Shown here piece after piece: positions 6,313-27,534 of a DNA stretch of 39,954 nt. Both the position numbers and the translations under genes were made by a program. Within the stretch, counting starts at the first letter, position 1; each line of letters starts with the position of its first letter. The notes under the pieces were generated by a model. It ran no database searches. It saw nothing but the letters and a program-made list of their open reading frames with translations, and was not told the origin of the DNA. Source of the stretch: a virus; the IMG/VR virus record IMGVR_UViG_3300024262_000090, positions 1-39,954 of that record; one strand, 5' to 3'.

Positions 6313-6756
6313 TTAAGCTCGTGCCGTCCACACAGGAACGCCACTAAATTTAACTGTTACAGATTGCGTTACCTTCCCGTCGAACGGTATTGCATGGCCC
6401 AAAGCAGTAATAAAACCCTTACAATAAACATCAGACTTGCTTGCTTCCGTGGTGTGGTCATTGAATGTTATATGATAGTATTGTGCATCATTTGTTTTCA
6501 GCGCATCCAACTCCGCCGCTGTACCTGCCGCCGTACCGTCGTAGTTGCATTCAAATGTCACCTCGCCCGCATCCAACATTCCAGGGATAAACTCTCTGAA
6601 TTTGGTAGTTGAATCCATTGTAGATATATCAATAGAATCTCTTGTCCCGTTAGGGCCGCTGATACTGATGATATTACCTATAGTAGTTACTGTGGTAACT
6701 GCTGTATTAGCAGACACTTTCAACGATGTTCCGTGTCCAAGTATGCCGTCACTCAT
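6313..6756 (-). CDS. Major tail (tube) protein, second paralog
   Basis: 147 aa. Together with the gene just upstream it forms a tandem pair that share MSDGI.GHG at the start, GNIISISGPN, DISTMDSTTKFREFIPGML and GFITALGHAIPFDGKVTQS. The SIDISTMDST-type motif is typical of siphovirus tail tube proteins. The two genes differ in the loops at residues about 12-28 and 85-110. It may be a minor tube variant, a tube terminator or a functional backup. It lies directly before the chaperone G, as expected for the tube gene. Confidence 0.85.
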   Translation of the reverse strand: MSDGILGHGTSLKVSANTAVTTVTTIGNIISISGPNGTRDSIDISTMDSTTKFREFIPGMLDAGEVTFECNYDGTAAGTAAELDALKTNDAQYYHITFNDHTTEASKSDVYCKGFITALGHAIPFDGKVTQSVTVKFSGVPVWTARA

Positions 6757-6766
6757 AATAAACTCC

Positions 6767-7183
6767 TTACGCCGTCTCGTCGGTATATGTTGGTGAACCT
6801 GTGAATTTGAGGCCGAGCGATTGTGTTACCTTGCCGTCAAATGGTATCGCATGACCTAACGCTGTAATAAAACCGGATGAAGAAAAGCTCGATGTAACTG
6901 TTCCGTTATACAAAGTAATCAATACGGTAGCGGCGGTGTTGGTTTTCCATGTGTTTAGATAATTAGCAGTACCCGCCGCCGTACCATCGTAATTTAATTC
7001 CACCGTCACTTCTCCGGTGTCCAACATTCCAGGGATAAACTCTCTGAATTTGGTAGTTGAATCCATTGTAGATATATCTACTGAATCTCTTGCTTCATTA
7101 GGCCCGCTGATACTGATGATATTGCCTACTGCTGTCTCACCAATAGTCAAAATAGCTCCGTGCCCGTGTATTCCGTCACTCAT
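6767..7183 (-). CDS. Major tail (tube) protein, first paralog
   Basis: 138 aa, paralogous to the next gene (6313-6756), with a 59-bp stretch of identical DNA (7020-7078 versus 6572-6630). AAGGAG lies at a good distance before the ATG at 7183. A strong hairpin with a U-tract ends only 13 bases upstream of the start, so this reading frame begins directly after a terminator-like element. Tube subunits polymerise around the tape measure to form the tail. Confidence 0.85.
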   Translation of the reverse strand: MSDGIHGHGAILTIGETAVGNIISISGPNEARDSVDISTMDSTTKFREFIPGMLDTGEVTVELNYDGTAAGTANYLNTWKTNTAATVLITLYNGTVTSSFSSSGFITALGHAIPFDGKVTQSLGLKFTGSPTYTDETA

Positions 7184-7253: not shown

Positions 7254-7826
7254 TTAGTTTAGAATTTCGTTAAAAAAAATCTTGTAATCCTGCTGGCATT
7301 CGTAACGCCGTAAACCTCGCACGTCGGAAGGCTGAATAACCGTATCCGTTTCGTTAAGCAAAAACATTATCTGTACAGTAATATCACCTTCCGTACCACT
7401 GGCCGTATTCAGTGCAGTCCTTATCGCATTGGCCAATGCTCTACAACCGCTGTAAGTCGTTGCCGATGCCGTTATCCTGAATACCGGCGAAGCCATTGTA
7501 ATTCTGTTTGTCATCGTATGCTCACGCCAGCCACTTATCTGTTCGTAAATTATTGCAGGGACTGCGGTTGATTGTGGTATACGTAAGGGATATACCTTAG
7601 TATCGACTATGCTATTTACAGTTGGGTCGGCGATAATCGTCGCATATAAAGCCTCCTCAATTGTACTGGCTGTCGGCGGTGTTGGGGCTGCTCGTGCGCT
7701 GCGCCATACACCTGATACCGCACGTCTATCTGCTGCGGATATAGTGCCATCCGGCGTGAGAATCCCCACACCGATAGGACTAAGACTGGCTGCACTCATA
7801 CGTTTTGCTGCTGTATCTATAGCCAT
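7254..7826 (-). CDS. DUF3168-type tail completion protein with extra N-terminal domain
   Basis: 190 aa, TAATG-coupled to the preceding beta-helix gene. Residues about 60-190 match the DUF3168 tail-completion fold: 'IEEALYATIIADPTVNSIVD', VYPLRIPQSTAVPAIIYEQI, and a later SGCRALANAIRTAL helix. It is a paralog of 12270-12689, with shared YPL..PQ....PA..Y..I and a common RxYECQQDYKI-like end. The first 50 residues (TAAKRMSAASLSPIGVGILTP) are a separate element that I have seen as a stand-alone small phage protein, so this looks like a fusion. The likely role is the head-tail interface or tube completion. Confidence 0.8.
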   Translation of the reverse strand: MAIDTAAKRMSAASLSPIGVGILTPDGTISAADRRAVSGVWRSARAAPTPPTASTIEEALYATIIADPTVNSIVDTKVYPLRIPQSTAVPAIIYEQISGWREHTMTNRITMASPVFRITASATTYSGCRALANAIRTALNTASGTEGDITVQIMFLLNETDTVIQPSDVRGLRRYECQQDYKIFFNEILN

Positions 7827-10090
7827 TAGTCAGCCGCCCCATATTCGCTTTTCGTGAAGGTCGTACCATCATCGGAAATATCCGACTCCATCAATTTCGT
7901 ACTGGCATCATTTTTATAAATTGCAATTTCCGTACTACTGGTAGTCATCTTATTGCGCCATGCCTCATACAGATAATTGATTGCAGTAAATACACTCGCA
8001 TCATAATCTGGCGCTCCGGCAACAAGATCAGTCATACTCTTGGCCCACACCTCGTCAACCGTAGGTATTGCGGCAACTGAGATTATCAAAGCCGCCACAT
8101 TGGAATCAGTCTCCGCCTGTTCGGATATGATGGTAGCTATTTCGGTATCGATGTAATTGTCGATAGTTGTCAAAGATGCAGGTATTGTTGTTCCAGTATC
8201 TTCAAGAATCGAGTCAATGATGGTATCTAACCGGCCCGCGTTAGCCCAATCCTCTTGCAGTTCGTTAGTATCTGCAACAATCGCCGCAAGCGTCACACTG
8301 TTGGCCTCCATGTCCGTAACGACCGCCTCGGCAATGGATGCTATGTTTGCTGCCGATACTGTCGCCGACGCATTCGGGTCTTCCCAGACTTCTTCTGGGA
8401 GTAAAGCAATGGTCGCCGGTATCGTCGTCCCTGTGTCAACCAGTATATTATCAACGATACCGTCTATTGTTGCGAGTGTTGCCGGTAGCGTGGTTCCCGT
8501 ATCGGCAAGTATTAGTGCGATATTCGGGTCTGCTGCAACCGCAGTTGCCGTGGCCGTGGTAACATCAGCAGAAGCCATCGCCCTGCCTGGAGTAGTACCA
8601 TCGGTTGCGAACTCCACCATCGCAGAGATATAACCTGTCCTGTTCGGGTCTGCATCAACACCGCCAACCTTAGCAACGTCAGCCTGTACAACCGTTGTAA
8701 GTGCGGCGGCATTGGCCCAAACCGCGTCAGCTATGGACGTAATATCAGCAGACTTAATTGAGCCTGCCGGAGTTAAAGTACCTGTGTATTCGTCACCACC
8801 AGAACCATAGGTTACGCCAAGATTTACATCTGCAACAGCAGGCAGGGTTGACGTTCCTGTAAACTCTGCCGCAGCACCATACTCCACGCTGTAATTTACA
8901 TCGGCTACGGCTGGTACGACAAATGCCCCTGTATTACTATCTCCATACGCCACACCATACTCTACATCAGCCTCGGCAGGATAATCACATCCACCGGCAG
9001 CGTTATCATCTTGGTCTGCACCAATATTTACTTTGAAATCTGCTCCCGCAACACCTTCATTTGCCGTTATTCCTAATCCTGTACTCAAACAGACACTTGC
9101 CGCTTGCAGCGAGAAGTCGGCATTAAGAGTAATATCGCTATCAATACTATGCGGGCCTACTGTTACGTTAGTATTCCCACTGGCGTCTCCGTCGTATGAA
9201 TTGTAGTCAAACCAGTTGTTTTTATTCTCAGTATCCCAAGTAGCGGGTGCGGCACATTCATTAAATATGTTATTTATGCACAAAGTCGAATACGCTGTAG
9301 TTGCCGTAAGAGCAGATGCACAAGTGTCGAAAGTGTTGTTTATTATGGAAGTGTGGCTCACATTGCCAAAATTAAAACCAACAGTGCAGTTCTCGATAAC
9401 GCTGGATATTAAATTTACATTGGAAGAAGTGGTATTGATACCAACGGCAGAATCGTGAATATAGCAGTTAATTATTGAATTTACAGATGTACTATTTACA
9501 CCTGCCCCTGCTGCGGAACCTGTGGCTTCGCATGAAATCAACATTGATCCAATGCTACCGAGAGTAAACGCTTCATAAGTGGTTGCCGTGTTTTTATTGT
9601 TAGCTGAATAACAGTTTTCAAAAGTAGAACCGATGTCCGCTTGTATTCCGTTTCCACTATTTGTCAAAAATCTGAGATTCTTTATCATCCAATAATCGTC
9701 AAATGTAAGCTCTTCTGTGTTAGCCGCGGCATCAAAAAGCGGCCTGTCAGTATCATAAGCGTAGTCAGCAAGAACAACTGCTGCATCTTCGTGAGTAGTA
9801 GCTGCCAGAACCCCTATGATGTAAATTGGTGCAACAGCAGTGCCATCATTATCCGCCACAATGGGAGTATCCGCCGGAAGGGTAAAAGTCGTCCCCCCTT
9901 TTATATAATAGACATCTCCAGGTTCGGCATTGGTGTTTACATCAGTTATAAAATCAGTCATACTAAAGGCGTTGGCCCATGTCTGACCATCGTTGTTACC
10001 TGCTCCGGCAACGGTGACGTGCAGATAATCAGCAGCGGCAAACAACTGTGTCGCAAAGAACAATATCAAAATAAGCATTAGTTTTTTCAT
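7826..10090 (-). CDS. Secreted-type beta-helix protein with phage fibre C-terminus
   Basis: 754 aa. Start at the ATG at 10090, TAATG-coupled to the upstream gene. Residues 1-18 (MKKLMLILILFFATQLFA) are a Sec signal peptide ending in Ala. Residues about 20-330 have the repeated short Asn/Ile-rich strands of a right-handed parallel beta-helix. From about 340 there are three 'PAVADVNxGVxYG...TGTL' repeats. Then come three 'DTGTTIPAxLxTID' repeats with Ala/Asp-rich helix. The C-terminus (DYDASVFTAINYLYEAWRNK, then SDDGTTFTKSEYGAAD) matches a domain I associate with phage structural proteins. It is therefore a chimera of a host-like secreted helix and a phage fibre tail. Role inferred: adhesion or a receptor-binding appendage. 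Confidence 0.75.
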   Translation of the reverse strand: MKKLMLILILFFATQLFAAADYLHVTVAGAGNNDGQTWANAFSMTDFITDVNTNAEPGDVYYIKGGTTFTLPADTPIVADNDGTAVAPIYIIGVLAATTHEDAAVVLADYAYDTDRPLFDAAANTEELTFDDYWMIKNLRFLTNSGNGIQADIGSTFENCYSANNKNTATTYEAFTLGSIGSMLISCEATGSAAGAGVNSTSVNSIINCYIHDSAVGINTTSSNVNLISSVIENCTVGFNFGNVSHTSIINNTFDTCASALTATTAYSTLCINNIFNECAAPATWDTENKNNWFDYNSYDGDASGNTNVTVGPHSIDSDITLNADFSLQAASVCLSTGLGITANEGVAGADFKVNIGADQDDNAAGGCDYPAEADVEYGVAYGDSNTGAFVVPAVADVNYSVEYGAAAEFTGTSTLPAVADVNLGVTYGSGGDEYTGTLTPAGSIKSADITSIADAVWANAAALTTVVQADVAKVGGVDADPNRTGYISAMVEFATDGTTPGRAMASADVTTATATAVAADPNIALILADTGTTLPATLATIDGIVDNILVDTGTTIPATIALLPEEVWEDPNASATVSAANIASIAEAVVTDMEANSVTLAAIVADTNELQEDWANAGRLDTIIDSILEDTGTTIPASLTTIDNYIDTEIATIISEQAETDSNVAALIISVAAIPTVDEVWAKSMTDLVAGAPDYDASVFTAINYLYEAWRNKMTTSSTEIAIYKNDASTKLMESDISDDGTTFTKSEYGAAD

Positions 10091-12273
10091 TATTGCCTTC
10101 CTATAAAATAGTGTATAACCGAATCGGCTGGGTCGGAAAGAGTAGTAAAGTTCCATGCATCGCCAGTCGTAATTCCGTTAGCATCGTTGGCGTCTATACG
10201 CCAGTAGTACACTGTTTCATACTCCATCGTTCCGGTATCGTAGGCAGTTGCATCTTGATTAGTCCCATTTACTATATTCGTCGGTGGAGTATTCGTTCCG
10301 AAGTAAACATTGTAATTCTCAGCCCCACCGCCATTTACCCAGCCTAAATCGTTAGTTCGAGATACATCCGTTTCATCATCGGCGGGGTCGGGCGTCGTTG
10401 CTTTGGACGGGCCGCCAGTAACATACTCATAAGCACCAACGTCAGGGTTTGCGCCACGATTGACGCCAAGAATATCCGTTTCAGCAGCATAAACAGCGCT
10501 GCCAAAATCAACGGCACAAGCGTCTGATTTCAGTGTATAATCATCGTTTTCGTAATCTGTAAACAACGCCGCCATCTCTCCGGCAGTTAAGGGATATGTG
10601 CCTTTGTGATATACATGATCAGTTTCGGAAATAACTAAAGGGTCTATCCCTGTAAAACCATAATCAGACATAATGTTATAAGATTCATTTACATCAAGAG
10701 TCATCCAGCCATAAGTAACGTAAGCATCGCTGCACACGCCGGTATTTGGACTTGTTGCCAAAGCCAATTCACTGTTGCTGGTTTTGCCCGTAATTGTATA
10801 ATAACCAACAGTGGCATTTGTGCCAGAATTGACGTGCAACTGGTCGCCCTCTGCATATACATAATTATTAAACCCATTGGTCTTTGTAACCGTATAGCCC
10901 GAATCGCTACTCAATGTACAACCGGAAGTGTTGCCTCCATACGTTACAGAAAAATATCTGCAATATAAATTATTGTGGATCTCATACACAGAACCAGGGG
11001 CAGTGCTGTGAAGGATAGTGTCTGAAATTATATTATCGGCATCTTGGGCATAAGTATTATTCCTAATCGTAACGGAATGCGTTTTCCCAATTATAGAACA
11101 AACAGCTTGATTGAATTTCCCATACCATAGATTGTTTTCAACCAAAAGGCCATCGTTTGTAGTGGTTCCCTCCCATAACAGCCCCTGATTGCCAGAACTG
11201 AAAATGTTTTTGCGTATGGTTATGTTATCAATGGTTCCCTGCCCCTCTAAAGCTGCGGTAGAATAAATCTGCAAGTCATCACTATGATAGACTTCGTTGT
11301 TGGCGGCTACAGAAGAAGGAGTAAAGGTAGCGCCGCTGGTTACGCCAGATATTTCATAACCGGCAAGAAAGCCGCCAACGGGGATAGTAACGTCACCTAC
11401 TTCATAAAAGTAGTATTCGTCATTGATTACTTTCAATACAGCCGTAACGGTATCATAAGTAGGATTTGTTTGACTTATCGTTTCCCCTATTTGAAATGGG
11501 CCGTCAGCCAGGGTACTATTCCCATCTACAGAAAACCCATTTCCAACAACGCCCATATCGTGAATATAATTACCGCTTATTACGGTATCCGATATGTCGC
11601 TGGCAACAATCGCGTCATTTCCCAATCCATATATATTATTGTTTTCAAACAAACTGTCACTTAGCATATACGCAGCTATTCCATCCTGGGAATTAGTCAT
11701 TACACAATCAGAAAGTTCAATGTGGGCGGCCGGGGGGCCACCTGGCTTTCCTCTTAAATAAGCACAAGCCCCTACAATAGTATGGTCGAGGGTGCGCCAA
11801 TTCAACCCTGCCTCAAAACGACAATTTGTTATTTTAATGTAGCTTAGGCTCCAGCAAGCAAAAGACCTCGGACTAAGTAATTCGGCCTGTTCGACTCCTG
11901 ACATTTCAAAATGTAAACCATCAAAAATAAGGTAGGCATCGTAAAGTGTTTGAGACGATTCATTCAGATAAATCTTCGCAAAAACTGGCGGATTATTAGT
12001 GTCCGCCGCTGCGTATGTAATCCATTGGCCCGAAGTATTATTTACAGTAGACCACTTCCATAGCCCATAATTACCGTCTGCAATATAAACGGTATCTCCA
12101 CCCACAACATTAGGGTCGTCCGCTGAACCCAGTTGTGCCCTCGCCATTGTTTTCCACGGATGAGTAATATCGCCAGTATTGGCGTCGTTGCCATCGGTGG
12201 CGTCCACATAATACGTAGCCCCCAGGCACGGTAGACAAAAGAACATCAACAATAGGATAGCCAGTTTTTTCAT
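10090..12273 (-). CDS. Secreted right-handed beta-helix protein with Fn3-like C-terminus
   Basis: 727 aa; the start overlaps the DUF3168 stop as ATGA. Residues 1-18 (MKKLAILLLMFFCLPCLG) form a signal peptide. The mature N-terminus YYVDATDGNDANTG, then HPWKTMARAQ, is the signature of DUF1565/pectate-lyase-like parallel beta-helix proteins. The region to about 620 is filled with N-rich coils (YIKITNCRFEAG, VENNLWYGKF). Residues about 630-720 form a beta-sandwich with DLGWVNGGGAENYNVYFGT and YYWRIDANDANGITTGDAWN, as in planctomycete extracellular proteins. There is no phage-specific domain. It may be a captured host gene serving as a depolymerase, adhesin or lysogenic-conversion factor; no catalytic residues could be identified. 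Confidence 0.8.
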   Translation of the reverse strand: MKKLAILLLMFFCLPCLGATYYVDATDGNDANTGDITHPWKTMARAQLGSADDPNVVGGDTVYIADGNYGLWKWSTVNNTSGQWITYAAADTNNPPVFAKIYLNESSQTLYDAYLIFDGLHFEMSGVEQAELLSPRSFACWSLSYIKITNCRFEAGLNWRTLDHTIVGACAYLRGKPGGPPAAHIELSDCVMTNSQDGIAAYMLSDSLFENNNIYGLGNDAIVASDISDTVISGNYIHDMGVVGNGFSVDGNSTLADGPFQIGETISQTNPTYDTVTAVLKVINDEYYFYEVGDVTIPVGGFLAGYEISGVTSGATFTPSSVAANNEVYHSDDLQIYSTAALEGQGTIDNITIRKNIFSSGNQGLLWEGTTTNDGLLVENNLWYGKFNQAVCSIIGKTHSVTIRNNTYAQDADNIISDTILHSTAPGSVYEIHNNLYCRYFSVTYGGNTSGCTLSSDSGYTVTKTNGFNNYVYAEGDQLHVNSGTNATVGYYTITGKTSNSELALATSPNTGVCSDAYVTYGWMTLDVNESYNIMSDYGFTGIDPLVISETDHVYHKGTYPLTAGEMAALFTDYENDDYTLKSDACAVDFGSAVYAAETDILGVNRGANPDVGAYEYVTGGPSKATTPDPADDETDVSRTNDLGWVNGGGAENYNVYFGTNTPPTNIVNGTNQDATAYDTGTMEYETVYYWRIDANDANGITTGDAWNFTTLSDPADSVIHYFIGRQ

Positions 12274-12689
12274 GTGAGAATCTTATACCAAATACGATAA
12301 TCCTGTCGTTTGCCGCATCTTTTCAATACCGCCAACTCGTTACTCATATCAATCATATCCCCCTCGTCCTCAAGATGTATGCAATGTATCTGTACATAAC
12401 CCGTTGTATCATCATAATTATCTAATACTTTGCGTACTGTATCCGCTAATTGCCTTGCGCCCTTATAGCTTGTAGCCCAACAATTCACCTGGAACATTTC
12501 CTCGGCGTAATTGTTCGCGCCGTCCATCGTAATATCCCAATCGCCCGCAATTCTTTGATATGTAACCGCTGGTAAAGTTGCAGGCTGCGGTAGCATCAAA
12601 GGATATATTCTCGTTGCTACAAGTTCAGCCACATCGCCACCGGCGGCAAGCAGCGAATATATAGCCTTTTCAATCGTATCAACTGCCAT
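12270..12689 (-). CDS. DUF3168-type tail completion protein
   Basis: 139 aa. I chose the ATG at 12689, which has a GAGG site upstream and overlaps the gp10-like gene by 11 bases. The sequence has IEKAIYSLLAAGGDVAELV, then RIYPLMLPQPATLPAVTYQR, then YKGARQLADTVRKVL and a DYRIWY end, which is the DUF3168 pattern of HK97/lambda-type tail completion proteins. Its place directly after the gp10-like gene is the normal one. The second copy at 7254-7826 is displaced by the two beta-helix genes. Confidence 0.85.
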   Translation of the reverse strand: MAVDTIEKAIYSLLAAGGDVAELVATRIYPLMLPQPATLPAVTYQRIAGDWDITMDGANNYAEEMFQVNCWATSYKGARQLADTVRKVLDNYDDTTGYVQIHCIHLEDEGDMIDMSNELAVLKRCGKRQDYRIWYKILT

Positions 12690-13131
12690 GTGCTGCTGCC
12701 TCGATACCACGCCTTAATTCGCCGGCTGCTATCTGCAATCCAACGCTTTTCCACGCCTCCGCCGCCTGCCGCATAAACGGCATCGCCGCCACCTGCCCAC
12801 CGCCGCGCGAAACATGACCATACTCAATAGCAGCGGGTATAAAACTGCGTTTGCCGTCCTTGCTGTTATAGACAAACTCCTCCACGTCCGGTTTGATTTT
12901 CACGCTCATACCATAACTGCCCTTGCGTTGTTTTTTGAATGCACGAAGTTGTATATTTTTGGCAATCAATGAACCCATACCACCGCCAATCATTGACCTT
13001 GCATTCGCCTTCGAGCCGGTCAACATAGGTTTCAAGGCAGCCCGTACAGCTTTTTTGACAACTCTTTTGCCCACTTTTCTTTCAAGTAATAACAGTTTTC
13101 TTTCTAATTCCACGCCACCTTCGAGAATCAT
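12679..13131 (-). CDS. HK97 gp10-like tail completion protein
   Basis: 150 aa, very basic in the N-terminal helix (GGVELERKLLLLERKVGKRV, KKAVRAALKPML). It then has YGMSVKIKP, a conserved-type IEYGHVSRGG motif, and AAMPFMRQAAEAW near the C-terminus. The order basic helix, 'EYGT/H', 'P.MRPA' is diagnostic of the HK97-gp10-like family. TGATG overlap with the head-closure gene. It acts at the head-tail joint or tail terminus. Confidence 0.9.
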   Translation of the reverse strand: MILEGGVELERKLLLLERKVGKRVVKKAVRAALKPMLTGSKANARSMIGGGMGSLIAKNIQLRAFKKQRKGSYGMSVKIKPDVEEFVYNSKDGKRSFIPAAIEYGHVSRGGGQVAAMPFMRQAAEAWKSVGLQIAAGELRRGIEAAAHGS

Positions 13132-14762: not shown

Positions 14763-15968
14763 TTAACTAATTAGCGTTACTTCCGGTCTACAATGGGCAG
14801 GCGCCCCTTTGGATTCCAAATCGCCCATGTGTAAATGAATGGGCTTAAAGCCATTTTCGGCCGTGTCTGGAAACGTACACATCATTTGCATGTGGCCGAT
14901 GACAACATGGTTCGCCTGCACAGCCTTAAAACCCTGATGAAAAAACTGATTCCAAAAATATATATCATCATCCTGCCTGCCATCGCCCCAGTCACCGCGC
15001 TCATTAGGTACAGCTAAAAACCACGGCTTTTTTAATCGTTTCAAACTACTCGCACGAAACAGTGTCAAACCAAAATGGCCCGAAGCGACAGGTGTTAATT
15101 CGCCTGCAAAATCTGAACACTTTGCTCTTTGAACTATCTTGCCTTCTTTGTCCCGCACACCAAATAGTGGCTCACTACTTTGCCGTTTACTCTGCACCGG
15201 CATCATCGCATCAATATCAGGATTCACTCTCATAAGCTGGCATAACTTTATGATATGGTCAGGTGTAAACCATGTATCGTAATCGAGTGTAAATATCCAT
15301 TCCGCACCGTTGTTAATCTGTTCCTCAATCATCCGCGTGAGGACCTGGCCCCAAAATACTCCAGTGCCCCGCGTCAATGTTATGCCTAATCCCAAAAACG
15401 CACAGGCTGCCGTGTGCATATTGTCCGCGAAACACAACCGCGGCATACTCATTACCGCGGCAATTTTAGTCATTTCATCGGCGGTAATAGTCGGTGTCGC
15501 TTCTTTTTTTGTACCCTGCAAATTCAAACTAATCGGCAGCGCCGCGCAATCGTTCAAAATCGAATCCCACGGCTTTATATCAATAAGACCAGCCGCATCC
15601 ATCATGGCTGATAGAGATTCCTTATCGAATAGTGACTTGTGATAATCATTCTCGTCGTCTTGGCCGCCGCAAATATAGCTAACTGTATTTATCTTTTCGC
15701 CAGCCAGATACTTCTCACTTATCAGGCGATAATCAGGCACGGCAATCTTTATTACACCGCCAACCTTGAGCTTCGATACCCAATTTTCTAATACCTTAAG
15801 CGATTGTCTCCAATCAAAATGCTCCAGAATATGTGAAGCATATATCTCATCAACTGATTCATTTTCGACCGCCAAGGGATATGCTTCTGTCCCATACTTG
15901 CGGTCATAATTAGTGTAGCCAGGCATTACAATATCGCCGGAGCCAAGATTCAATTTGATTTTTTCCAT
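14763..15968 (-). CDS. Methyltransferase-glycosyltransferase fusion
   Basis: 401 aa from the ATG at 15968 (a TTG at 15986 is weaker). Residues 1-130 form a SAM-dependent methyltransferase: LNLGSGD at 6-12 is motif I, HILEH at 46-50 and VPDY at 77-80. Residues about 180-380 form a GT-A glycosyltransferase: a GAEWIFTLDYDTWFT strand with the DYD metal-binding triad at 229-231, and an acidic GDWGDGRQDDDIYFW segment at 325-339. The linkage inside the capsid-connector operon suggests modification of virion proteins or of a decoration protein by a methylated sugar, but the acceptor is unknown. Cytoplasmic; no signal peptide. Confidence 0.8.
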   Translation of the reverse strand: MEKIKLNLGSGDIVMPGYTNYDRKYGTEAYPLAVENESVDEIYASHILEHFDWRQSLKVLENWVSKLKVGGVIKIAVPDYRLISEKYLAGEKINTVSYICGGQDDENDYHKSLFDKESLSAMMDAAGLIDIKPWDSILNDCAALPISLNLQGTKKEATPTITADEMTKIAAVMSMPRLCFADNMHTAACAFLGLGITLTRGTGVFWGQVLTRMIEEQINNGAEWIFTLDYDTWFTPDHIIKLCQLMRVNPDIDAMMPVQSKRQSSEPLFGVRDKEGKIVQRAKCSDFAGELTPVASGHFGLTLFRASSLKRLKKPWFLAVPNERGDWGDGRQDDDIYFWNQFFHQGFKAVQANHVVIGHMQMMCTFPDTAENGFKPIHLHMGDLESKGAPAHCRPEVTLIS

Positions 15969-15993
15969 TCTTAACCATCCTTTCAATCCATGA

Positions 15994-27084: not shown

Positions 27085-27534
27085 CTATGTTATTGCTGGG
27101 AGGCCACGCAGAGCACGAATGACATTGACAGCTTCCGGCCCAAGTTTATCCTTGAATATAACCTCTACCTTTGCCCAGTCTGCTGGAGACAACTCCTTGA
27201 AGTCTTCAATGGCCTGTACAATACTTGCTGTTGTGTTATAATACAAACTTGCTCGTGTCTGCTCTGCAACCAACTTGGGCTTGATTATTCGCCACGTTGC
27301 CAGTATAGAAGCAAGTATCGTTATAATACCTGTCCCTATCAGTTGCGGGAAGATACTGCCTAACATGGTCAGTACGCTAATCGTGGCTGTAGCCCCCGAT
27401 TCCACCTTTGCAATAGCGTTCGGGTCGGCGGTGTAATGTTTTACGCCCTTTTCATCTTTCGTGATTACGCATCCCGCCACAGTCAACACCGCCGCAAGAC
27501 ACACAGTCAATACTGCTAATTTTACTCGTCTCAT
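27085..27534 (-). CDS. Membrane lipoprotein with helical domain
   Basis: 149 aa. The N-terminus has a type II signal peptide: MRRVKLAVLTVCLAAVLTVA followed by Gly-Cys22 (lipobox LTVAGC). A hydrophobic stretch at about residues 51-82 (VLTMLGSIFPQLIGTGIITI) could be a second membrane span or helical pair. The C-terminal third is amphipathic. Phage lipoproteins of this type act in lysis (spanin-like) or superinfection exclusion; the early-region position favours exclusion or lysogenic conversion. AAAGGACAGTAAA precedes the ATG. Confidence 0.8.
   Translation of the reverse strand: MRRVKLAVLTVCLAAVLTVAGCVITKDEKGVKHYTADPNAIAKVESGATATISVLTMLGSIFPQLIGTGIITILASILATWRIIKPKLVAEQTRASLYYNTTASIVQAIEDFKELSPADWAKVEVIFKDKLGPEAVNVIRALRGLPAIT

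Follow-up and report, generated by a model that had tools for sequence, protein, structure and literature searches.

Why two adjacent genes in the virion operon of a tailed phage should encode proteins that open with Sec signal peptides (SPs) is the question raised by this locus; in the textbook view, tailed-phage assembly is entirely cytoplasmic. The window, that is the whole stretch of 39,954 bases analysed in this study, is a siphophage-type genome with its genes on the minus strand, and the integrase that it encodes indicates a temperate phage. The structural genes follow the usual order (portal-region, S49 protease, HK97-type capsid, connector, head-closure, tail-completion, tail-tube and tape-measure-like genes). 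The two genes, A and B, lie inside this operon between two DUF3168 genes, and capsid, head-closure, connector and tail-tube genes surround the block:

12270..12710, minus strand: DUF3168 (tail completion gp17) gene, copy a, with Pfam and PHROG matches
10090..12273, minus strand: gene A, 727 aa, with an SP, a right-handed beta-helix, a choice-of-anchor-Q-like region and an Ig/Fn3-like tail (the tail read by eye)
7826..10090, minus strand: gene B, 754 aa (ATG at 10090), with an SP, a beta-helix-like N-terminal half, fibre repeats and a phage C-terminal module
7254..7826, minus strand: DUF3168 gene, copy b, with the N-terminal extension 'AIDT..AKRMS..DGTISAADRR..GV' and Pfam and PHROG matches
6313..7183, minus strand: two tandem major tail protein genes, downstream of the A/B slot

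Both flanking genes matched PF11367 (Tail_completion_gp17; E 3.8e-11 and 3e-9) as well as PHROG tail terminators. The stop of DUF3168 copy a overlaps the start of A in an ATGA at 12273, and a TAATG joins the A stop to the B start at 10090 and the B stop to the start of DUF3168 copy b at 7826. The coordinates, strand, translational coupling and position between two DUF3168 genes given in the initial annotation were thus correct. While the earliest in-frame start of B is at 10156, a good Shine-Dalgarno sequence (AGGAAGG) and the in-frame SP belong to the start at 10090, and a wrong start codon was therefore rejected for B, as it was for A because of its translationally coupled ATG. The identical arrangement of the A/B region was found in a contig from another sample, L002 (99.84% identity over 9.5 kb), which rules out an assembly accident; host contamination was likewise rejected given the structural operon context and this separate sample. 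L002 also supplied the only close relatives of full-length A or B (99.8% identical). Two further features of the operon were recorded. The major tail protein genes (6313-6756 and 6767-7183, minus strand) are also paired in L003, L005, L028, L068 and L072, and a mixed tail tube may be formed. A methyltransferase-glycosyltransferase fusion (14763-15986, minus strand; PF13489 + PF00535, sub-threshold) lies in the head-neck operon and at the equivalent position in L003, L005 and L070, possibly for virion-protein modification.

The signals themselves are as follows:

12217..12273, minus strand: predicted SP of A, MKKLAILLLMFFCLPCLGA followed by TYYVD, heuristic score 4.67, calibrated
10031..10090, minus strand: predicted SP of B, MKKLMLILILFFATQLFA(AA) followed by DYLHV, heuristic score 5.41

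All SP calls in this study come from a single purpose-written heuristic score that combines the charge of the n-region, the hydrophobicity of the h-region and the -3/-1 rule. In its calibration on E. coli, eight known SPs scored 2.95-4.91, and none of 33 cytosolic proteins exceeded 2.59. A and B score within or above the known range, and their N-termini have the features expected of Sec type-I signals (a basic n-region, a hydrophobic h-region and small -3/-1 residues in an AXA-type site), in agreement with the clear Sec signals initially reported for both. A chance origin was rejected, since a score of at least 4.6 was reached by 1 of 2525 shuffled phage N-termini. Within the window, scores of at least 4.0 were confined to A, B and a lipoprotein at 27085-27534 (minus strand; 149 aa, type-II signal); a short lipoprotein is also encoded in L028 (13624-14004).

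The domains of the two proteins point in different directions:

11512..11727, minus strand: beta-helix match PF13229 in A, profile E 5.5e-8
10423..10539, minus strand: choice-of-anchor-Q-like stretch in A, sub-threshold, E 4.1e-5
7829..8110, minus strand: 94-aa C-terminal module of B, conserved in about 20 phage contigs, mostly without an SP

Profile matches place A among beta-helix proteins of the kind found on bacterial surfaces: PF13229 reached 33 bits against a curated cut-off of 25.9, and the choice-of-anchor-Q model NF041518 gave 23.7 bits against a cut-off of 25 (the same model scored 40.6 bits, E 2.3e-10, above cut-off, on an SP-less beta-helix protein of L054). B had no match in Pfam, PF13229 included, its best being a sub-threshold NosD match (E 0.02), so that its beta-helix assignment rests on the repeats as read; the beta-helix repeats originally ascribed to both proteins are thus borne out by profile for A. 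For the planctomycete-type Fn3-like domain initially read at the end of one of the proteins, a Pfam search of the C-terminus of A gave no match even at E<=5, and a PDB sequence search with A and B returned no match. An enzyme family was found for neither protein in Pfam, PHROGs or NCBIfam, nor was homology to a characterised polysaccharide lyase or hydrolase of the depolymerase or tailspike type in these collections or PDB. AlphaFold models made without an alignment were unusable (mean pLDDT 31.5 for A and 34.2 for B). The nearest database matches to the start of A are Bacteroidetes-type proteins. One match in the phage database, MT835907.1 (L023), was rejected as phage evidence because it looks like Bacteroidetes chromosomal DNA; the record is filed as 'Bacteriophage sp.' and apparently represents a Bacteroidetes chromosome with SusC/SusD-like genes. 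Secreted surface proteins of bacteria with a beta-helix (PF13229, choice-of-anchor Q) share with A the SP, the beta-helix and, at a sub-threshold score, the anchor-Q-like stretch. They differ in that A and B lie in a phage structural operon and have no recognisable C-terminal sorting signal, and B runs on into a phage fibre.

The phage-type C-terminus initially noted in B was confirmed by homology. Over its last 79 aa, B shares 77% identity with a 357-aa protein that lies in the same slot of L003 and has no SP, and the 94-aa module recurs in fibre-type proteins of about 20 IMG/VR contigs from varied phage types, suggesting that B may dock to the virion through it. A small gene with the motif AIDT..KR..DGTI..DR..GxY nearly always stands directly 3' of the module-bearing gene; it is separate in other phages and forms the N-terminal extension of DUF3168 in the window's siphophage group. 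A LamG gene often precedes the module-bearing gene. At the search sensitivity used, the cultured-phage collection yielded no copy of the module. In the host scan of genome contigs the single match was a siphophage lacking an SP, in an Anaerolinea MAG, with one further weak match among 400 genomes from the phylum of that MAG.

In related siphophages the site is variously occupied. L005, the closest phage by portal (65%), has an empty slot, with one DUF3168 gene followed by the tail tube. L003 has a metallophosphoesterase-LamG protein, the 357-aa protein, a second DUF3168 (66%) and the tail-tube pair, with an SP on neither of the first two. A tail-tube scan found DUF3168 with an extra N-terminal domain in L070, L074 and L072 (CBM-like but sub-threshold in the first two, CBM_4_9 in L074, and of another type in L072); in L069 a pair of DUF3168-type genes is accompanied by a beta-helix protein (PF13229) that has no SP. 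From these varied contents, the A/B site is, by comparison of gene order, a variable appendage slot tied to the tail-terminator protein, filled in relatives by LamG, phosphoesterase, beta-helix or CBM-like proteins that mostly carry no SP. Compared with tailed-phage neck or tail appendages and fibres (L003-type LamG and module proteins), the operon slot, the C-terminal module of B and the DUF3168 partner are held in common, whereas A and B, unlike their SP-less counterparts in L003, L028 and L069, bear Sec SPs and bacterial-surface beta-helices. Scores of at least 4.0 were reached by 18 of 478 ORFs from related phage loci: nine belonged to the cassette or post-capsid genes in three podophage contigs, four were post-capsid genes of the siphophages L010 and L054, where the SPs are on fibre-like genes 3' of the capsid gene, and five were others, including a lipoprotein.

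The podophage contigs (L025, L027 and L050, all module-bearing) belong to a lineage with an HTVC010P-like connector, unrelated to the window's phage, which a connector scan extended to L079, L081, L082 and L083. In the L050 cassette, SPs were found on proteins of 132, 234, 306 (LamG) and 692 aa, and a weaker one on a 209-aa protein. BLASTP placed the SP as an exact N-terminal addition: residues 38-132 of the 132-aa protein correspond to residues 1-96 of its L028 homologue (57% identity), residues 38-234 of the 234-aa protein to L028 residues 2-197, and podophage LamG proteins begin to align at residue 22-25, opposite residue 3-8 in L033 (L027 residues 25-267 with L033 residues 8-261). The SPs of the first two L050 genes share 50% identity over 40 aa and look as if copied, while the B-type proteins of L027 and L050 have different SPs and share LQKNVASQKW as the start of the mature part. 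In each of the six podophage contigs that show the gene following the capsid cluster, its product has an SP, and L079 has one on a fibre-like protein.

The same holds for the tail nozzle, which is absent from the window. SPs were found on it in three of three lineage contigs reaching the gene (L079, L098 and L086/L091). The L079, L098 and L086 proteins align over the full profile of the T7 gp12-like nozzle, or tail tubular protein B (PHROG 376; HTVC010P, BPP-1 bbp13, Carin1 gp36), the L079 match to PHROG 376 (tail protein) beginning at residue 25 (E 5e-182), and differ from the cultured nozzles checked by an extra SP of 16-18 aa. The nozzles of HTVC010P, BPP-1, Carin1 (annotated as structurally validated), vir555, ct8d5349 and L032/L033 are SP-less, with 4-12 residues between start and conserved block in the first five. 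As side observations, nozzles are enlarged to 1035-1286 aa (L079 16277-19384, L098 648-4466), that of L079 with an inserted LamG domain (PF13385, E 5e-17); small podophage proteins have Tat-like twin-arginine N-termini (L082 4072-4440, SRRQMLK; L097 1760-2158, NRRNFLK); and vir555, a recorded virus of Methanomicrobiales, encodes an SP-like protein between its capsid and adaptor genes (L104 2381-2896).

None of 50 other gene products of the lineage (from portal, terminase, capsid, scaffold, adaptor, internal-virion and neighbouring genes) had an SP. The signals of A and B are unusual, as initially remarked. Outer proteins had an SP in 18 of 18 cases, a class drawn up post hoc, after the SPs had been seen. 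Contrasts within families are fairer, albeit with few genomes per lineage: 3/3 in the lineage against 0/7 outside for the nozzle, 2/2 against none of about nine for LamG, and 3/3 in the lineage plus the window against none of about 18 others for B-type proteins.

Given the established gene order, SPs by sequence criteria, homology of the B module and slot, SP-less homologues and gain of SPs on orthologous tail parts of other phages, we propose, with a rough probability of 0.4, that A and B are appendage proteins that are exported by Sec and then attached at the virion neck. Both would be virion-type proteins of the beta-helix adhesin or glycan-binding type, made from a slot beside the tail-terminator genes. 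During late expression in the infected cell, their Sec type-I SPs, presumably cleaved, would carry them over the inner membrane. We infer that B, with A as a probable partner, would join the neck or tail region of particles only once lysis breaches the membrane, B attaching via its conserved C-terminal module and the second DUF3168 protein. A is less certain as a virion part than B, since it lacks the phage module and resembles a bacterial surface protein. A nozzle has no plausible role outside the virion, so SP-bearing proteins can be virion parts; this argument is drawn by analogy from a phage lineage other than the window's. The nozzle SP thus leaves a choice: either such N-termini do not serve in export, or outer tail parts leave the cytoplasm and are joined to heads later. 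We know of no precedent for an exported nozzle that later finds DNA-filled heads. Some surface-type cassette proteins of L027 (a collagen-like one of 195 aa and one of 193 aa) are SP-less, which also counts against the proposal.

Alternatively, A and B might be exported and remain with the infected cell or lysogen, acting outside the virion as surface adhesins, as masks that bind glycans or as blockers of receptors (superinfection exclusion, cell clumping), a reading that we regard as rather unlikely. It would suit the bacterial-surface architecture of A and a temperate phage. The LamG proteins of L027 (6043-6918) and L050 (4718-5638) combine the SP with a C-terminal hydrophobic segment and a K/R tail that their SP-less homologues do not have. 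Such an end is more in keeping with a membrane anchor than with attachment to the virion, and favours cell display for those at least. However, A and B are placed among late structural genes, the module of B is common to SP-less fibres, and the SP-bearing nozzle has no surface role. It is still less likely that the hydrophobic N-termini are retained, targeting assembly to the inner membrane or acting on membranes from the virion. Retention would account for an SP-like N-terminus on a nozzle that stays cytoplasmic, but nozzle, LamG, fibre and beta-helix proteins, whose folds are unrelated, all show this n/h/c architecture with AXA-type sites, and it is kept despite sequence divergence, as in the L027 and L050 B-type proteins with their constant mature start, which favours export. 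Gene capture, by which host surface genes supplied A and the front half of B together with SPs that are now neutral, is improbable: it would explain the likeness to bacterial secreted proteins and the Bacteroidetes-type matches of A, but same-slot beta-helix proteins without SPs in L069 and L054 suggest that an SP is easily lost, SPs lie precisely ahead of LamG, fibre, post-capsid and nozzle proteins, typical phage folds of other lineages, and are thus more than leftovers of host genes, and the only change in the A SP between two near-identical contigs is synonymous (weak evidence, with 15 base differences in 9.5 kb).

The export or extracytoplasmic assembly system first suggested for this locus gains support from other phages, in which orthologous appendages, fibres and nozzles carry SPs; for the suggested depolymerases, no enzyme family was found. 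SP-bearing, membrane-assembled structural proteins are familiar from the coat proteins of filamentous phages, to which A and B have no homology, the window being a tailed dsDNA phage. A literature search, with most subscription papers and preprints outside its scope, found no report of Sec signals on tail or fibre proteins of tailed phages. It is possible, though we hold it doubtful, that tailed phages of at least two unrelated morphotypes build outer tail parts beyond the host inner membrane, Sec-exported and later meeting DNA-filled, adaptor-closed heads; with similar reserve, the parts so built might be fibres and appendages of a lectin-like kind, as well as the tail nozzle in one lineage.

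Export signals ahead of virion folds, down to the nozzle, would mean either that assembly is split across the membrane or that phages make surface proteins derived from tail parts. Both outcomes could be probed by proteomics and with reporter fusions, and the mature N-termini predicted here (TYYVDATDGNDANTGD..., QQEKPYR and QDKPYR) could be sought in metaproteomes that already exist. A Sec-type label on the tail parts of unrelated phages hints that some phages may complete their outer parts outside the cytoplasm.
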